Assembly: GCF_009789675.1 (NCBI RefSeq)
Contig: NZ_CP046914.1
Coordinates: 930,001 to 994,000 of the forward strand
Length of the DNA stretch: 64,000 bases
Direction: 5' to 3'
DNA from: Paraburkholderia acidisoli
GTDB lineage: Bacteria; Pseudomonadota; Gammaproteobacteria; Burkholderiales; Burkholderiaceae
The notes below the pieces were generated by a model that worked only from the letters and a program-made list of their open reading frames with translations, did not search any database and was not told the DNA's origin. The position numbers and the translations under genes are program-made. Positions within the stretch are counted from its first letter, which is position 1. Every line of letters starts with the position of its first letter. Positions 54,074 to 61,816 of the stretch are shown here, in pieces.

Positions 54074-56416
54074 ATGAAGAAGCCGCAAGGTCGCATCGAG
54101 CCGTATCACCACCCCGCCGCAGGCTGGGGCGCGCTCAAGCAGGTCGCCATCAACCTCATCAAGGAAAAGGTGACGGGCGGCGACTACCGCATGCTGCTCA
54201 AGCAGAACCAGCCCAATGGCTTCGACTGCCCCGGCTGCGCGTGGCCCGACCGCGAGCACGCCTCGACGTTCGAATTCTGCGAAAACGGCGTCAAGGCCGT
54301 GGCGGCGGAAGCAACCAGCAAGCGCGTGACGCCGGACTTCTTCGCGGCGCACACGGTCAGCGAACTGATGGCGCAATCGGACTACGAACTGGAACAGCAC
54401 GGCCGTCTCACCGACCCCATGGTCTACGACGCCGCGCAGGACCGTTACGTGCCGATCGACTGGAACGCCGCGTTCGAACTGATCGCGAAGCACCTCAAGG
54501 CGCTCGACGATCCGAACCGCGCCGCGTTCTACACCTCGGGCCGCGCGAGCAACGAAGCCGCGTTCCTGTACCAGCTGTTCGTGCGCATGTACGGCACCAA
54601 CAACTTCCCCGACTGCTCGAACATGTGCCACGAAGCCACCAGCCGCGGCTTGCCGGGCACGGTCGGCATCGGCAAGGGCACGGTCACGCTCGACGACTTC
54701 GAACACGCCGACACGCTCTTGATCTTCGGCCAGAATCCGGCGACGAATCACCCGCGCATGCTGGGCGAGCTGCGCGAATGCGCGAAGCGCGGCGCGACCA
54801 TCGTCTCGATCAATCCGCTCAAGGAGCGCGGCCTCGAACGTTTCGCGAGCCCGCAGCACACGCTCGACATGCTTTCGCCGAAGGGCGTGCAGATCAGCTC
54901 GGTGTTCATCCGCCCGCGCGTGGGCGGCGACTTCGCGCTCATCAAGGGCGTGGCCAAGCGCGTGATCGAGCTCGACGACGAAGCGCTCGCGCAAGGCACG
55001 GAACGCATTCTCGACGTTGGCTTCATCGCCGAACACACGGTGAATTTCGACGCCTTCGCCGCCGACCTGCGCGCCGAATCGTGGTCGACGATCGTGGCCG
55101 AAGCGGGCCTGGCCGTCGACGAAATCCTCAAGCTCGCCGACATCTACGTGAAGGGCAAGGCCGTCATTTCGACGTGGGGCATGGGCATCACGCAGCACAA
55201 GAATTCGGTGGCCACGATCCAGCTGCTCTCGAATCTGATGATGATGCGCGGCAATATCGGCCGTCGCGGCGCGGGCCTGTGCCCGGTGCGCGGCCATTCG
55301 AACGTGCAGGGCGACCGCACGGTCGGCATCGAGGAAAAGCCCACCCAGGCGTTTCTCGACCGTCTCGCGAAGGCCTACGATTTCGAGCCGCCGCGCGAAC
55401 ACGGCTACGACGTGGTCGAGACCATTCACGCGATGCTCGAAGGCCACGTGAAGGTGTTCATCGGTCTGGGCGGCAACTTCGCGATCGCCACGCCCGACAC
55501 GCCGCGCACCTTCGACGCGATGCGCTCGTGCGCGCTCACCGTGCACGTGACCACCAAGCTCAACCGCAGCCACCTGATTCACGGCCAGGACGCGCTGATT
55601 CTGCCCACGCTCGGCCGCACCGAAATCGACACGCAGAACGGCGTGGCGCAAGGCGTGACCGTGGAAGACTCGATGAGCATGGTGCACATCTCGTACGGCA
55701 TGAATCGCCCGGCATCGGCCAATCTGCTTTCGGAAATCGCTATCGTCGCGCGCATGGCGCACGCCACACTCGGCAGCGACAAGGTCGACTGGCTCGATCT
55801 GGCTTCCGACTACGCGAAGATTCGCGACGGCATCGAGCAGGTGTTCGACGGTTTCCAGAACTACAACGAGCGCCTGAAGAAGCCGGGCGGCTTTCATCTG
55901 GGCGTGGCCTCGCGCGACCGCGTGTGGAAAACGCCCAGCGGCAAGGCGCAATTCGTCGTGCACGGCATCGCGCTCGACACGCCGATCCACCGCGCGCGCG
56001 CCGAACACGGCCAGAAGCTCATGACGCTCATGACCACGCGTTCGCACGATCAGTACAACACCACGATCTACGGTCTCGACGACCGCTATCGCGGCGTGTA
56101 CGGCCTGCGCCGCGTGCTGTTCGCGAACCGCGAAGACCTGACGATGCTCGGCTTCGAGCCGGGCCAGCACGTGGACATCACGAGCGTGTGGGACGACGGC
56201 GTGGTGCGCCACGTGGAAGACTTCATGCTCGTGGAGTACGACATTCCGCGTGGCTGCCTTGGCGCGTACTACCCGGAAACGAATCCGCTCGTGCCGCTTT
56301 CGTCCGTCGCCGACGGTGCGGGCACGCCCACGTCGAAGTCGATTCCCGTGCTGCTGAGCCCGGCGAAATCGGCCACGCTGGGCGCAGACACGGAAGCCCA
56401 CGCCATCGCGGCATAA
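54074..56416 (+). CDS. FdhF/YdeP-family molybdopterin oxidoreductase
   Basis: A 780-residue molybdopterin enzyme of the YdeP branch. GFDCPGCAWPDREHASTFEF near residue 49 carries the N-terminal Cys cluster seen in this branch; cofactor-binding segments include FYTSGRASNEAAFLYQLFVR, DCSNMCHEATSRGLPGTVGI, LLIFGQNPATNHPRMLGELR, STWGMGITQHKNSVATIQLL and KLMTLMTTRSHDQYNTTIYG. In E. coli YdeP is linked to acid resistance; the reaction is unknown. The ATG at 54074 begins the conserved MKKPQGRIEPYHHPAAGWGA. No fdhD or chaperone gene is adjacent. A terminator follows at once. Confidence 0.92.
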   Translation: MKKPQGRIEPYHHPAAGWGALKQVAINLIKEKVTGGDYRMLLKQNQPNGFDCPGCAWPDREHASTFEFCENGVKAVAAEATSKRVTPDFFAAHTVSELMAQSDYELEQHGRLTDPMVYDAAQDRYVPIDWNAAFELIAKHLKALDDPNRAAFYTSGRASNEAAFLYQLFVRMYGTNNFPDCSNMCHEATSRGLPGTVGIGKGTVTLDDFEHADTLLIFGQNPATNHPRMLGELRECAKRGATIVSINPLKERGLERFASPQHTLDMLSPKGVQISSVFIRPRVGGDFALIKGVAKRVIELDDEALAQGTERILDVGFIAEHTVNFDAFAADLRAESWSTIVAEAGLAVDEILKLADIYVKGKAVISTWGMGITQHKNSVATIQLLSNLMMMRGNIGRRGAGLCPVRGHSNVQGDRTVGIEEKPTQAFLDRLAKAYDFEPPREHGYDVVETIHAMLEGHVKVFIGLGGNFAIATPDTPRTFDAMRSCALTVHVTTKLNRSHLIHGQDALILPTLGRTEIDTQNGVAQGVTVEDSMSMVHISYGMNRPASANLLSEIAIVARMAHATLGSDKVDWLDLASDYAKIRDGIEQVFDGFQNYNERLKKPGGFHLGVASRDRVWKTPSGKAQFVVHGIALDTPIHRARAEHGQKLMTLMTTRSHDQYNTTIYGLDDRYRGVYGLRRVLFANREDLTMLGFEPGQHVDITSVWDDGVVRHVEDFMLVEYDIPRGCLGAYYPETNPLVPLSSVADGAGTPTSKSIPVLLSPAKSATLGADTEAHAIAA

Positions 56417-56450
56417 GGTTCGGTCGCGCTCACCCGGTTCGAGCGCGATA

Positions 56451-56487
56451 AAAAAAGCCTCGGCGTTCACCACGCCGAGGCTTTTTT
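56451..56487. terminator. Bidirectional intrinsic terminator
   Basis: A perfect 16-bp stem (56451-56466 with 56472-56487) and a 5-base loop; six A residues begin it and six T residues end it, so it works in both directions for the YdeP-type gene and the chemosensory operon. Confidence 0.93.
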
Positions 56488-56508
56488 CATGCGGGCATCG
56501 CGACCGCT

Positions 56509-56874
56509 TTAGCTCGCGAGCTTGCGGAACGTTTCGAGCACTGCTTCGCCCTTGAAGGGCTTCACGATCCAGCCGCGCACGCCCGCTGCCTTGCCGCGTT
56601 CCTTCATCGCCGGGCTGCTTTCCGTCGTCAGCATGACCACGTTCACGGCCGTGTTCGAGAGTTCGCTGCGGATCTTTTCGACCATCGTGAGGCCGTCCAT
56701 GTTCGGCATGTTCACGTCGCTCACCACGAGCTTCACGCCGGGGTTCGCCTTCAGCTTCGCGAGGCCGTCCTTGCCGTCCACGGCCGTATCGACTTCGAGG
56801 CCGTTCTTGCGCAGAAAGCCGGCCACTTCGTCGCGAACCGTGCTCGAATCGTCCACCACCAGAATCTTTGCCAT
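56509..56874 (-). CDS. CheY-like single-domain response regulator
   Basis: A 121-residue receiver with no output domain. All catalytic residues are present: acidic pocket Asp8-Asp9 (VVDDS), phospho-acceptor Asp53 (SDVNMPNMDG), Thr83 (MLTTES) and Lys105 (IVKPFKGE). AAGGAG lies 9 bases before the ATG at 56874; six residues upstream in frame are probably not translated. It is the last of five same-strand genes and would receive phosphate from the membrane CheA-like kinase, with the two CheX-type proteins as likely phosphatases. Its output partner is unknown. Confidence 0.95.
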   Translation of the reverse strand: MAKILVVDDSSTVRDEVAGFLRKNGLEVDTAVDGKDGLAKLKANPGVKLVVSDVNMPNMDGLTMVEKIRSELSNTAVNVVMLTTESSPAMKERGKAAGVRGWIVKPFKGEAVLETFRKLAS

Positions 56875-56911
56875 GTTGTGCTTCTCCTTCACGCCCGTTA
56901 CGGCGCACTTT

Positions 56912-56961
56912 GGGTCAAAACGTTTGGGTCAAAACCGTCGGGTCGAACCAACGGGTCAAAA
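56912..56961. repeat. Four-copy 13-14-bp direct repeat array around a stop codon
   Basis: GGGTCAAAA begins at 56912 and 56926, a variant GGGTCGAA at 56940, and GGGTCAAAA again at 56953. Spacing is 14, 14 and 13 bases. The last copy includes the TGA stop of the REC-CheX gene; the others fill the 81-base gap before cheY. Confidence 0.85.
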
Positions 56962-57942
56962 TAGTTCGAGTTCGCCGCTTTCCTGCTCTTCCACCGCGGC
57001 GGCGGCGGCTTGCGCGGCCGTTTCGTCGAAGCCTTCGCGCGACCAGCCGAGGCTGAACACGAAGCGCTGATCGATCACGACTTCGCGGCCCGTGTTCGGG
57101 CACGTGAGCCGGTACTTGATGCACAGCTGCGGATTGTCCGAGCCGAACGACAGATAGTGCCGGCGATGGTTGATGAGCAGCGGCACCTGCACCTGCGCGC
57201 GCGTCGTGCCCGCTTCGCTCGTGCCGTTCGCGTTGCCGAGATAGCGATTGCGGAACGCGCCCCACACGAGATTCGTGAGTTCGCCGAGCACGCCGTTGAC
57301 ATCGCGGAAGTCGCTGCTTTCGTCGCGGCCCGGCCGTGCCGGCAACAGTTCGATGAGCGGCGCCTCTTCGGTCTGCATCAGCAGCCAGCCGCGGCACCAC
57401 ATCGTTTCGATCGGGATCAGCGTGAGCACTTCGCCGAAGATGATGCGGTCGCGCACCACGCTCGGCGCGTCCCAGTTCACGTCGAGATCGGGGAACAGGC
57501 CGCGCAGACGCCCGAACGTCATGTCGGTGATGCCGTCGACGAGCGGGTCCGGATAATCGTGCGAAAACACCTGCGCGTCGAGCGCCGTCAGGAGCGAGGC
57601 ATCGTCGGCGTCGCACCAGCTCGCGCGCGAAGCGTCGCGCAGCGTCTCCGGCAGGTCGTCGCTGTTCGTGCCGGCCGAAAGACGCAGCACGATCGGCAGT
57701 TCGGGGCGTTCCGCCTGGAGCGCCACGGCCACGGCCGCCGCCGCTTCGTGCGAGCCGCCGAAGTCCTCGCCGAGCAGCACGCCGCCCAGGTCGTAGTGCG
57801 TCTTGAGTTCGGCGGCAAGCGCGTCGCGGCGCACCGGCACGCACACGCAATGATGTTGTTCGCACAGGCGCGCGATGGCTTGCGCGCGCGCCTCGTCGCT
57901 TTCGAGCAGCAACAGCTTGCTGACCGTCTTGTTCGCGTTCAT
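56956..57942 (-). CDS. Pseudo-receiver fused to CheX/CheC-like phosphatase domain
   Basis: A 328-residue two-domain protein. Residues 1-125 have a receiver fold (KLLLLESDEARAQAIARL), but the phospho-acceptor position reads VLLGEDFGG, without the expected Asp, and the KP motif is missing, so it is a pseudo-receiver. Residues 140-328 resemble CheX/CheC: GVLGELTNLVWGAF carries ExxN (Glu221, Asn224), the phosphatase signature. The extreme C-terminus is GELELF, identical to that of the neighbouring CheX protein. AAAGGA lies 7 bases before the ATG at 57942. It probably docks CheY or the kinase through the dead receiver while the CheX domain dephosphorylates CheY. Confidence 0.83.
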   Translation of the reverse strand: MNANKTVSKLLLLESDEARAQAIARLCEQHHCVCVPVRRDALAAELKTHYDLGGVLLGEDFGGSHEAAAAVAVALQAERPELPIVLRLSAGTNSDDLPETLRDASRASWCDADDASLLTALDAQVFSHDYPDPLVDGITDMTFGRLRGLFPDLDVNWDAPSVVRDRIIFGEVLTLIPIETMWCRGWLLMQTEEAPLIELLPARPGRDESSDFRDVNGVLGELTNLVWGAFRNRYLGNANGTSEAGTTRAQVQVPLLINHRRHYLSFGSDNPQLCIKYRLTCPNTGREVVIDQRFVFSLGWSREGFDETAAQAAAAAVEEQESGELELF

Positions 57943-57998
57943 GGTTCCTTTCTGCTGATGTGCTGCTGAATGTGTTGCTGAGAGTGCTGGCGAACTGC

Positions 57999-58529
57999 TT
58001 AGAAGAGTTCCAGCTCGCCGCCCATGTCCTGCGTTTCCATCGTTGCGGAGACCACGAAATCGAGCGGCGTTTGCGTGCAGACACAGAGCGTCGCGCCGAG
58101 CTTCACGTCGTAGTCGAGCGTGAGCGAGAACGACTGCACATAGTCGGGCTGCAATTCGCGCAGATACGGCAAACACGCGCTGCCGAGCGCATACGGCGTG
58201 GACATGCCGAGGTCGGGAAAATGCTCGACCAGTTGCTGATTCATCGCGCCGCAACAGAGATTGCCGTACTCCATGAAGCATTCGGTGAGCGCGCGCGAGG
58301 CGTCGCCGACGTAATAGCGCCGCGTGCGTTCGTCGTCCTCGAAATGCAACGCGACGATCAGGCGAAACTGCATCGACGAAATAGTCAGGATGACCAGGTT
58401 CTCGCCCTGCGGTTCGTCGCTCGCGCGCGGTACGACTTCACACGACTGCCCTTCCTGCGCGACCAGACGCGTGCGTGCAGCGGCCGTAAAGATCCGCTGA
58501 AAGCTGTCTTTCGCGTGGTCGCCGATCAT
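57999..58529 (-). CDS. CheX/CheC-family CheY-P phosphatase
   Basis: A 176-residue single-domain protein of the CheC/CheX/FliY group. The motif FMEYGNLCCGAMNQQL contains Glu87-x-x-Asn90 and Pro112 lies 22 residues after the Asn, as in the ExxN-x21-P signature of active phosphatases. The C-terminal segment after residue 160 is Thr/Glu-rich and ends GGELELF. The ATG at 58529 overlaps the stop of the MCP-like gene by four bases (ATGA), implying coupled translation. It likely resets the CheY encoded downstream. Confidence 0.88.
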   Translation of the reverse strand: MIGDHAKDSFQRIFTAAARTRLVAQEGQSCEVVPRASDEPQGENLVILTISSMQFRLIVALHFEDDERTRRYYVGDASRALTECFMEYGNLCCGAMNQQLVEHFPDLGMSTPYALGSACLPYLRELQPDYVQSFSLTLDYDVKLGATLCVCTQTPLDFVVSATMETQDMGGELELF

Positions 58530-59272
58530 GCCGGCGCTCCGGCGCGCGACGTTTCGAGTTGCGCGTACAGTTGCGTCGAGGCGGCTTCCACGCTCGCGAG
58601 CGAGGCCGCGATCATCTTGCCGCCCGCCTGGATGTCCTGGAACGTCGAGGCGGTGATCAAATCGTTGCGGTTGAGGCTGTCGCGATAGCTCTTCGAGAGT
58701 TCCTGCGAGCGCGTTGCCAGCGTGCGCACTTCACCCGCCACGATCGAGAAGCCGCGCCCGGCCGCGCCCGCGCGCGCCGCTTCGATCGACGCGTTGAGCG
58801 AGACGATCAGCACGTGGCTCACGATGGCGGACAGCTCCTGATTCTTGCGGTGCATGTCCTGGTTCTGCGCCATCAGCGAGATCATCTGCTCGTGCCAGCG
58901 CTCGAACGTGGACGACATCAGCTTGAGGCGGCCCGCCTCGCTCGCGATATGCGCAACGCGGCTCATGGCGTCGTCGCCGCGCTGGCGTTCGCTCGCGAGC
59001 GCCGCCTCGAGCGCGTCGGCCACGGAGCGGCGCTGCGCGAGTTCGGCGCGCAAAGAGTCGATCTGCGCGTCGAACGCGGCCTGCTGCTGCGCCGCCGCTT
59101 CGTGCTGCCCGGCCGCCAGCGCCTCGGCGTCCGCGAGCGCTTCGGCGTGCGCCGATTGTTGCGCGAGCAACGTGTCGCGCGACGCGCCCTGCGCGCGGCG
59201 GCTCAGCACGAACGCGACGATCGCGGCCAGCACGGCGCCGGCCACGCCTCCCATCAAGTACGGTAAAACCAC
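58526..59272 (-). CDS. Minimal MCP-like signalling protein, single membrane span
   Basis: A 248-residue protein. One N-terminal transmembrane helix (residues 4-23, LPYLMGGVAGAVLAAIVAFV) is followed by a long coiled coil (about 30-110) and a short MCP hairpin with tip SHVLIVSLNASIEAARAG then AAGRGFSIVAGEVRTLATRS (about 152-189). There is no periplasmic sensor, HAMP or methylation helix of normal length. The tip keeps most residues that contact CheA/CheW in classical receptors, but its Gln/Glu-Gly lead-in differs. Encoded 18 bases after the kinase, it is likely an adaptor scaffold for it. Confidence 0.88.
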   Translation of the reverse strand: MVLPYLMGGVAGAVLAAIVAFVLSRRAQGASRDTLLAQQSAHAEALADAEALAAGQHEAAAQQQAAFDAQIDSLRAELAQRRSVADALEAALASERQRGDDAMSRVAHIASEAGRLKLMSSTFERWHEQMISLMAQNQDMHRKNQELSAIVSHVLIVSLNASIEAARAGAAGRGFSIVAGEVRTLATRSQELSKSYRDSLNRNDLITASTFQDIQAGGKMIAASLASVEAASTQLYAQLETSRAGAPA

Positions 59273-59290
59273 GGCAACCCCCGACTGCGC

Positions 59291-61648
59291 TTAGGCGACC
59301 AGCGCTTCTTGCTTGTCTTCAGCCACGTCGCCGACCTGCACCGCCCATGCCTGCGGCAGACGCACGATGGTCTGGAAGTGGCGATATTCGGCCCCGGTGC
59401 GCTCGTCGGTGAAACGCAGGTCGATCGCGCCGCCTTCGCGTTCGAGGAACGCGCGCACCGCATCCATGCCCACGCCGCGGCCCGACACTTCGGTCACTTG
59501 CGCCGCCGTCGAGAAGCCCGAGCGGAAGATGAAGCCGGCGATCACGTCGTCGCTCACCGCTTCGTCCGCGCCGATCCAGCCGCGCTCCACGGCAATGCCG
59601 CGAATGCGGGCGAGCGCGAGGCCGCGGCCGTCGTCGCCGAGCGTCAGGTGCAGCGCGCCGTCCAGCACGTTCATGTCGATCTGGATATGACCCGCTTCGC
59701 CCTTGCCTTGTGCACGGCGCTGCGCCGGCATTTCGATGCCGTGGTCGAGCGAGTTGCGCAACAGATGCATGAACACGTCGCGCACGGTGCCCGAGGTTTC
59801 GCTACGCAGGCGATAACCGTGGTCTTCGATGCTCACGACCGGCGCGATCTTGCCGAGTTCTTCCGCGAGCGACGGCAGCGATTCCGTCACGCCCGCGAGC
59901 GCATCTTCCACCCGCTCGGTGCCGATGCCGCGCAGCGTGCGGCGCAGTTCGGCGCGCATCGTACGCAGTGCGTGCAGGTCGTTGTCGTCGGTGTGCTCCA
60001 CGATACGCAGCGTCGCTTCAATCGCGTCGCGGGCAATGCTGATGTTCGCTTCGTCGGCTTCCGTGCGCGGACCGCGACCGAGGCTCACCGAGTTGATGCT
60101 CGCGTAATGCTCGACGGCGGCCTTTACACGCGCCAGATCGTCGATCAGCGCCTGCTGGTCCCACACGTGATCGGGGTCGTCGCGGCGCAGCGCGTCGTAA
60201 CGCTGCTCGACTTCGTGCGCCACGCCCGTGACGTGCTGCAGGCTGTACGTGCGCGCGTTGCCCTTGATCGTGTGCATGTTGCGGAACAGCTCGGCGATCG
60301 CGTTGGCGTCCGCGCAATCGTGCTGACGAATGATGCGTTCGTTTTCGTGGATGAAGTCCGTTGCGCTGTCCACGAAGTGGTGGAACTTCTCTTCGTTGAC
60401 CGCGAGAATTTCGCCGATCATTTCCAGGCGGCGCTTCTGCTCGCCCGCTTCGGCCGCGAGTTCGCGCAGTTCCGTCACGTCGCGCACGCACAGCATCAGG
60501 CGCACGACCACGTCGTTTTCGTCGGTGATCGCGGACCAGCTCAGGTCCAGCACCTTGGCGCGGCCGTCCGGCAGCGTGCGCGTGACTTCGTTCACGAGCA
60601 AGTGCTGGTTGAACGCGAAGTTCACGTCGTCTTCGCCGAGACAGGCGTACACGGCGGCGTCGATCTGCGAAAGCGTGTCGGCGTCGAGTTCCGTGTGCGA
60701 GAACACGAGGTCCATGAGCGAGCGGCCGGCAATGTCGTTGGTCTCGAAGATCGCTTCGAGGTACGCCGAGTACTCGCTGTGGATCGTCGCGCCTTCGACG
60801 ACGGTGAGAATACCTTGCTGCATGTTCTGCAACATCGCCTGAATGTCGGCGGTCTTGCGCTTGAGCTGTGCGGAGCTGTGCTGGATCTTCTCGATCATGC
60901 CGTTGAACGCAACGATCGAATGACCGATCTCGTCCATGCGGCCAACCGGCACGCGGCGCGTGAAGTCCTGATTCGACGCGATCTCGCTCATCTCTTCCTG
61001 CATGCGCGAGAGCGGGCGCGTGATCTGGCGATACAGCAGCAGACCGATGATCGTGAGCAGCAGCACGGCGCCGCCCGTCACGCCGGCAATGGCGCTCGTG
61101 GTGGTGTCGAGCGTGCCGTTGAGCGTGTTGATCGCGTCGTCTTTCTGGCGGTTCTTTTCCACGCGCATCGTCGTGACGATGCCTTCGAGTTCGTCGCGAT
61201 ACTCGGCAACGTTTGCGAAGAGGTAGGCTTGCGCGAGTTCGTTCTTGCCGCTCTCCTTCATCTTCGCGGTGTCGTCGATCGCCGAGAAGTAGTTCGCGAG
61301 GCTTTCTTGCGCCTGCGAAACGAGACCGTCCTGCGCGTGGCTCGCGGCGGCCTTGCGCTGCACTTCGAGCGCGGCGCGCAACGCGGCTTCCTTGGCCTTG
61401 AGGTCGTTCTGCGCGAGCGACGCCACGGTGGCGTCGGGTGCGTAAACGAGCGTCATGGTCGCGAGCTGCACGTCTTTGACGAGCGACACGAGATCGGAAG
61501 AAGCGAGCGCGCTCGGCACGACGCCTTGAGTCACCTGGCGTACGTCGGAAGCACTGCGGCGAGCCTGATAAACCGCGTAACCGCCAATGGCGGTCAGCGC
61601 AACGAACATCAGGACGATGAGAAGCGTAATGCGATGACGGATGGTCAT
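59291..61648 (-). CDS. Membrane-bound CheA-like sensor kinase (sensor-HAMP-PAS-Hpt-ATPase)
   Basis: A 785-residue hybrid. Transmembrane helices at about 7-27 and 186-207 flank an extracytoplasmic four-helix sensor; HAMP about 208-262; a PAS-like domain about 270-400 (GILTVVEGATIHSEYSAYLE; VRLMLCVRDVTELREL); an Hpt domain with phospho-His459 (FRNMHTIKGNARTY); a dimerisation helix region; and a CheA-type ATPase with N box HLLRNSLDHGIE (Asn632), G1 GDDGRGL (671-677) and G2 GRGVGMDAV (723-731). It stops after the ATPase: the CheW-like P5 regulatory domain and the P2 CheY-docking domain of CheA are absent. It is the first gene of the chemosensory operon. Signal unknown. Confidence 0.9.
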   Translation of the reverse strand: MTIRHRITLLIVLMFVALTAIGGYAVYQARRSASDVRQVTQGVVPSALASSDLVSLVKDVQLATMTLVYAPDATVASLAQNDLKAKEAALRAALEVQRKAAASHAQDGLVSQAQESLANYFSAIDDTAKMKESGKNELAQAYLFANVAEYRDELEGIVTTMRVEKNRQKDDAINTLNGTLDTTTSAIAGVTGGAVLLLTIIGLLLYRQITRPLSRMQEEMSEIASNQDFTRRVPVGRMDEIGHSIVAFNGMIEKIQHSSAQLKRKTADIQAMLQNMQQGILTVVEGATIHSEYSAYLEAIFETNDIAGRSLMDLVFSHTELDADTLSQIDAAVYACLGEDDVNFAFNQHLLVNEVTRTLPDGRAKVLDLSWSAITDENDVVVRLMLCVRDVTELRELAAEAGEQKRRLEMIGEILAVNEEKFHHFVDSATDFIHENERIIRQHDCADANAIAELFRNMHTIKGNARTYSLQHVTGVAHEVEQRYDALRRDDPDHVWDQQALIDDLARVKAAVEHYASINSVSLGRGPRTEADEANISIARDAIEATLRIVEHTDDNDLHALRTMRAELRRTLRGIGTERVEDALAGVTESLPSLAEELGKIAPVVSIEDHGYRLRSETSGTVRDVFMHLLRNSLDHGIEMPAQRRAQGKGEAGHIQIDMNVLDGALHLTLGDDGRGLALARIRGIAVERGWIGADEAVSDDVIAGFIFRSGFSTAAQVTEVSGRGVGMDAVRAFLEREGGAIDLRFTDERTGAEYRHFQTIVRLPQAWAVQVGDVAEDKQEALVA

Positions 61649-61816
61649 GTCGAAATCCCCGGGCCTTCGTTTGCCGGCCGCGCTATGACTGCGCGACTCA
61701 TGGCAATAGCGGCCAATTTATTCACGGTGGATATTGACGGTTAGGTATGACGAAATGATGAATGTTGTTATTCCGTCACATTGGCCCTATTTCCATGCCC
61801 GTTTCGCTCGCGTGAC

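Follow-up and report, generated by a model that had tools for sequence, protein, structure and literature searches.

A five-gene operon encoding a CheA-derived kinase with its own membrane sensor and without the P5/CheW domain was characterized in Paraburkholderia acidisoli, in a 64,000-nucleotide stretch of contig NZ_CP046914.1 (positions 930,001 to 994,000; hereafter the window). The genes occupy 61648-56509 of the window on the minus strand and encode, in order, the kinase, a protein resembling the methyl-accepting chemotaxis proteins (MCP), a CheX-type protein (CX1), a pseudo-receiver-CheX protein (CX2) and CheY; gene boundaries, an 18-base gap and a 4-base overlap all agree with a first-pass annotation made from the sequence. 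The gene set is conserved, both CheX-type proteins end in the same short tail, a direct repeat precedes the operon, and the CX1-positive genomes of two samples also encode FliM. We read the operon as a CheA-derived membrane two-component module and put the probability of the whole explanation, covering sensing, phosphoflow, docking, Pho control and flagellar output, at about 0.55. The features and their coordinates are listed in Table 1.

According to this reading, a periplasmic signal would be received by the 4HB-HAMP-PAS input of the kinase and would lead P4 to phosphorylate His459 of P1, from which the phosphate would pass to Asp53 of CheY, as the intact motifs of both proteins suggest. CX1, assisted by CX2 where present, would strip the phosphate from CheY-P, as predicted from the CheX fold and the ExxN motif. 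Through the short acidic-hydrophobic C-terminal tail GELELF, both phosphatases would dock on a shared partner, which may be CheY or the MCP-like hairpin; the C-terminal helix of CheZ likewise docks on CheY. The MCP-like protein would serve as a membrane-anchored coiled-coil platform and not as a receptor, and coupling through CheW or P5 would not be required. PhoB or a close relative would turn the operon on in phosphate shortage, and the output would be flagellar.

Conservation was assessed in 48 loci, all CX1-positive by construction and with gene starts picked by script, comprising all 18 named CX1 relatives, 20 of the 93 found in the family and all 10 new ones found at the order level; counts of 49 sequences include the window. 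The kinase, MCP, CX1 and CheY genes lie on one strand in 48/48 loci. The synteny search proposed in the first-pass annotation showed the gene order to be kept: 42 loci are collinear with the window, and in the six rearranged ones the MCP gene still stands directly before CX1. CX2 is optional (31 loci with it, 17 without). A strong kinase match was present in 54 of 58 genomes of the genus and any match in 57, three of them weak (E ~1e-23). CX1 was found in 93 of 200 genomes and 10 of 25 genera of the family, in 13 of 300 genomes of the order and, at E<=0.001, in 13 of 398 genomes of the phylum; five of these last matches were strong, one of them outside the order. That genome (G536, locus L120), from another order of the class, contains all five genes in order. 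None of the loci L121-L127, which hold weak CheX-like matches outside Burkholderiales, has the five genes by profile; gene contexts were read for L121 and L124-L126 only. The best named CX1 relatives are in Paraburkholderia, and CX1 matches in a plasmid collection came from four Burkholderia, two Caballeronia and one Ideonella record. On an Ideonella dechloratans plasmid (NZ_CP088082.1; L135:3752-7411), an Hpt protein, an MCP and a hypothetical protein (the CX1 match) are annotated near integrase and diversity-generating retroelement genes, with no CheY or CheX annotated in the 14 kb shown.

The P1, P3 and P4 domains of the kinase align with solved CheA structures, and the phospho-accepting H459 as well as K462, N632, D673 and R724 are kept in 48/48 kinases. 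The PAS-like domain (approximately residues 279-390) is visible as a predicted fold only; it gave no Pfam match, and the structure comparison barely covered that stretch. P2 is absent. P5 is also absent: no CheW-domain match was obtained and the predicted model stops after P4, in line with the first-pass annotation, with 23-65 residues remaining beyond residue 748 in the kinases of the examined loci. A recent survey reports the P5/CheW domain in all (100%) of its CheA sequences, about half of which have no P2 (Berry, Andrianova and Zhulin 2023, PMC10782961; 13,673 sequences in the preprint, PMC10542144). The kinase resembles CheA in P1 with its phospho-accepting His, P3 and P4 and, like about half of the CheAs of that survey, is P2-less, but it differs in the missing P5 and in its own 4HB-HAMP-PAS membrane input. 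It is plausible that sensing has moved into the kinase, which bears this MCP-type 4HB-HAMP input.

Judged as a canonical chemosensory system, the operon has neither CheW nor CheR nearby; in profile searches the nearest matches to both on the contig lie about 290 kb away. Neither a cheW gene just outside the gene set nor a CheW-like or P5 domain in the kinase, which the first-pass annotation had named as contradicting its proposal, was found. CheB and CheD are not among the five genes, and no profile search for either was made around the operon. The module may act independently of CheW, but the genome has 10 CheW-domain places elsewhere, along with a canonical che cluster.

Two tandem sets in genome G574 (L152:2846-11431) show the same kind of P5-less kinase with CheY and CheX neighbours. 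Each set encodes a kinase, CheY, CheX (PF13690; two copies in one set and one in the other) and an unassigned protein of 291-312 aa. The kinases begin with a hydrophobic stretch (by eye), contain Hpt and HATPase domains, end after P4 and share 26-28% identity with the window kinase in the PAS-P1 region. In contrast to the operon studied here, L152 has no MCP within the 16 kb read and no GELELF tail. It is possible that these sets represent a sister kind of module; since they combine P5-less kinases with CheY and CheX, a kinase-CheY-CheX axis can exist without an MCP. Extra copies were also observed in genome G030, where the main copy (L132) has no CX2. A second, complete five-gene set (L128:5116-10221) diverges at the N-terminus of its kinase, and no partner was found in the 15 kb read for a third kinase (L129:5666-8104), which is 52% identical.

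No ligand-binding sensor and no HAMP domain were detected by Pfam in the MCP-like protein. Its tip residues L, N, A, I, E, A, A and R are invariant in 49/49 sequences, including positions that we equate with Tsr L380, N381, E385 and R388, and the tip aligns with that of a canonical MCP of this genome over 49 columns with an HH probability of 98.7%. The descending arm carries the block D-x(5)-TFQD-x-QA, also invariant in 49/49, whose second D lies about 42 residues past the tip. Altogether, 30 columns are invariant among 23 MCP-like sequences that are 27-77% identical to that of the window. The MCP gene directly precedes CX1 in 48/48 loci, overlapping it by 4 bases in 35. The first-pass annotation had called the protein an MCP relic, a description that does not hold: given the strong constraint and the invariable position before CX1, it is regarded as a working part. 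An ordinary two-component system with a functionless, decaying MCP fragment would agree with the loss of sensor and HAMP domains but not with the presence of the gene in every locus or with the invariant columns, and is considered highly improbable.

The hairpin might instead modulate the kinase, as the first-pass annotation suggested, touching it directly at P3/P4 or HAMP and replacing receptor-P5/CheW coupling. This would fit the invariant tip positions, the adjacency of the kinase and MCP genes in 42/48 loci and a partial distance correlation between MCP and kinase core of 0.58 within the family (n=25); however, the correlation is 0.04 over all 34 loci, the six rearranged loci keep the MCP gene beside CX1 and not beside the kinase, and the P5-less kinases of L152 occur with CheY and CheX in an MCP-free neighbourhood. 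Direct contact is judged rather unlikely. The corresponding MCP-CX1 correlation (0.64 over 34 loci and 0.29 within the family, n=25) also shifts with the locus set, so that a partnership with CX1 is not robust by this measure, which counts against the preferred explanation; distance correlations were not used for the proposed mechanism, in which the hairpin may hold either the kinase or the phosphatase.

Alternatively, the hairpin could join the flagellar CheA-CheW array via a CheW encoded elsewhere and link the CheY and CheX proteins of the operon to canonical chemotaxis. The closeness of its tip to a canonical MCP tip and the CheW-domain places and che cluster in the genome are compatible with such a link, which is nevertheless judged improbable: the protein has no sensor domain, the nearest CheW on the contig is distant, and position 152, which we take to correspond to the trimer-of-dimers contact Tsr F373, is never Phe in 49 sequences, although this genome's canonical MCP has Phe there. 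Judging from these sequences, the MCP-like protein may not build ordinary trimer arrays, and the platform role remains the preferred one. A further candidate function, that of a CheZ-like phosphatase, was rejected. The TFQD-x-QA segment resembles FQDLTGQ of CheZ (AQDFQDLTGQ in this genome), but Gly or Ser occupies the position of the catalytic Gln, which we placed at D+4, in 49/49 sequences, and profile comparison gave a probability of 0.3%. A CheY-binding role, as opposed to catalysis, is conceivable.

CX1 was identified as CheX by fold, using structure comparison. The CX1 of the window had no Pfam CheX match at E<=1, and a sequence profile search of the PDB returned nothing significant (best 0.14, a CheX); 11 of 19 aligned CX1 relatives match Pfam CheX at E<=0.1, the best at 3.8e-5. 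Profile comparison of CX1 with CX2 gave a probability of 42.8% (E 0.00025) over the ExxN helix. The ExxN motif, presumed to be the catalytic motif of CheX, is kept in 49/49 CX1 (E87, N90) and 31/31 CX2 sequences. Fold and motif are common to the CheX phosphatases of Thermotoga maritima (1squ), Borrelia (CheX-CheY, 3hzh) and Vibrio (6vpw); unlike these, the operon encodes two CheX-type proteins with a common C-terminal tail, and CX2 adds a pseudo-receiver. Natural loss of the pseudo-receiver was observed in two CX2 proteins of 213-214 aa (L075:7275-7916 and L086:5866-6510), which have the CheX domain and a GALELF tail.

The tail, GELELF in both proteins of the window, fits G-x-[LM]-E-x-F in the CX1 of 48/48 loci. 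With the window included, 35 of 49 CX1 sequences are mutually <80% identical and all 35 have the pattern, which is kept down to CX1s with 26-28% overall identity to that of the window. For CX2, the tail agrees with G-x-L-[ED]-L-F in 30/31 by gene calls; in the 31st (L103) it closes the match, past a break in the gene reading, and the CX2 of G536 ends in GELEFF. The tail pattern has 79 matches in 663,479 bases of these loci, all at CX1 or CX2 ends (78 assigned by script, the 79th being the end of the L103 match), and in the window it occurs at these two ends only. The last 16 residues of the CX1 model have pLDDT values of about 52-57. Conservation despite apparent disorder suggests a docking peptide, and on the sequences and the model together the GELELF tail is probably one. 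The CheZ tail and the MCP pentapeptide are docking peptides of chemotaxis proteins (...DDLLASLGF and ...DWETF in this genome); the tail described here is likewise a short conserved peptide at a protein end, but has another sequence and sits on CheX-type phosphatases. A beta-clamp-type reading of the tail, suggested by a resemblance, was set aside, as the tail has Glu where the clamp motif has Gln. In G589, from another class of the phylum, a 337-aa MCP-like protein (L125:12057-13070) near CheX- and CheY-like genes ends in GDIELF.

The direct repeat upstream of the kinase gene resembles a Pho box. Its pattern, [GT]T[CA]A[TC]-N6-[GT]T[CA]A[TC], was found in 37 of 48 upstream regions (the window plus 47 loci; a mean of 0.56 in shuffles, at most 3), beginning 65-137 bases before the kinase start. 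It also occurs in 36 of 2,184 background tiles, a set that contains these same sites. Among non-redundant regions, 22 of 32 have it (shuffle mean 0.41, largest 3); each of 15 other spacings occurred in 0-2 of the 32, so the 11-base period is specific. A -10-like hexamer follows the repeat after 10 or 11 bases in 16 of these 22 regions. The single match of the window is not significant by itself (1.81 expected), and the case rests on conservation. The best-scoring pstS of the genome has three half-site pairs at 11-base period upstream: GTAAT, GTCAC and TTCAT are spaced by 11 bases, a 10-base step follows, and two copies of GTCAC then stand 11 apart. A study of Burkholderia sensu lato predicted Pho boxes before olsB, its first matrix giving them in 21 of 43 genomes (PMC7814305), so PhoB control has already been proposed in this group. 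The upstream sequences suggest that phosphate shortage probably activates transcription through PhoB or a close relative.

Several observations weigh against Pho control. The repeat is absent from 11 of 48 upstream regions (six from the family and five of the nine at the order level); the degenerate window site departs both from the strict repeat and from the ATAAT-type -10 pattern, which is present in 31/48 regions and which CAATAT of the window does not match; and the genome has a single exact match to the strict repeat-plus-hexamer pattern, just before a gene that looks LacI-type by eye. Another OmpR/PhoB-family regulator could bind the repeat in an operon unrelated to phosphate. Regulators of this family also bind repeats near 11-base period, and of the pstS-family places, the only phosphate genes compared (three), one has clear repeats, the second a single match and the third none; the strict match before the LacI-type gene points the same way. 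Since the best-scoring pstS carries the same kind of element, this alternative is considered less likely, and PhoB or a close relative is retained as the candidate regulator.

CheY is the most conserved part of the module (69-97% identity to that of the window), and its D8, D9, D53, T83 and K105 are kept in 49/49 sequences. FliM was found in all CX1-positive genomes of the family (93/93) and order (13/13) samples, which share three genomes and do not cover G536, against a background of 152/200 and 199/300 genomes, respectively. The hypergeometric values of 1.5e-16 (family) and 0.004 (order) treat related genomes as independent and overstate the association. The presence of FliM in every CX1 genome of both samples makes a flagellar output the most likely one. 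Other features speak against this output. CheY has Trp at the position that we equate with Tyr106, which argues against simple FliM binding, and its helix 4 differs (by eye) from that of the genome's flagellar CheY. Genome size is small (0.2-2.8 Mb) in all the listed FliM-negative members of the family (20 of 48), so phylogeny accounts for part of the association. A shared flagellar sigma-28 promoter was looked for and is not supported: three patterns matched 0, 0 and 4 of 48 upstream regions (0.6, 0.1 and 0.9 in shuffles), the third slightly above chance and in scattered loci (L035, L068, L107 and L109).

In comparison with the chemosensory classes F1-F17, ACF and Tfp, the operon shares the CheA-type core, an MCP-type hairpin, CheY and CheX; it differs in having no CheW, CheR, CheB or CheD among its five genes and in the fusion of receptor input to the kinase. 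The module works like a chemosensory system and lacks features that define CheA (P5) and the named classes (CheW and CheR). The first-pass annotation knew of no standard class with this composition, and no description of the operon was found in the literature searched, which covered mostly non-subscription journals. The CheX fold of CX1, the GELELF tail, the upstream repeat, the FliM association, the optional CX2 and the constraint on the MCP-like protein are new relative to that annotation. A bolder proposal, which we advance as doubtful, is a separate chemosensory class in which receptor input is fused to a P5-less CheA and the receptor's hairpin survives as a stand-alone membrane platform for tethered CheX proteins sharing a docking peptide; the set would be made on phosphate starvation and, needing no CheW, CheR or CheB, would reset flagellar behaviour.

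Table 1. Features of the operon and related sites (window positions unless a locus is named)
Feature	Position	Strand	Remark
Membrane kinase: 4HB sensor, HAMP, PAS-like, P1/Hpt (His459), P3, P4	59291..61648	-	
Hpt/P1 stretch, residues 425-510	60119..60376	-	Pfam Hpt
HATPase/P4 stretch, residues 623-748	59405..59782	-	
MCP-like protein: single hydrophobic span at the N-terminus (by eye), hairpin tip, TFQD-x-QA	58526..59272	-	PF00015
CX1, CheX-fold predicted phosphatase, ExxN E87/N90	57999..58529	-	
CX1 tail codons, GELELF	58002..58019	-	
CX2, pseudo-receiver and CheX domain, ExxN E221/N224	56956..57942	-	
CX2 tail codons, GELELF	56959..56976	-	
CheY, single receiver domain (D8, D9, D53, T83, K105)	56509..56874	-	
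Pho-box-like direct repeat TTCAT-N6-GTCAT, 11-base period, 98 bases to kinase start codon	61747..61762	-	
Candidate -10 hexamer CAATAT, 10 bases after repeat	61731..61736	-	by eye
Terminator hairpin and U tract, 3' of cheY	56448..56490	-	z -7.4
Sole strict genome match of repeat plus hexamer	L136:1532 = G000:C1:1226652-1226683	-	precedes a LacI-type gene (by eye), not a known phosphate gene

The terminator hairpin behind cheY was not among the six sites given by a simple terminator pattern scan. It is faced by the end of a convergent gene for an FdhF/YdeP-family oxidoreductase (TIGR01701; window 54074-56416).

The module places a conserved CheA core without P5 beside a stand-alone MCP hairpin, while CheA is defined by P5, which the survey reports in all of its CheA sequences (PMC10782961). 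It provides a naturally occurring case for testing the function of an MCP tip in the absence of CheW and for asking how receptors turn into sensor kinases, and GELELF is a new candidate peptide for the docking of CheX phosphatases. Should both the Pho-type control and the flagellar output hold, the module would link phosphate shortage with the behaviour of a large group of soil- and plant-associated bacteria.

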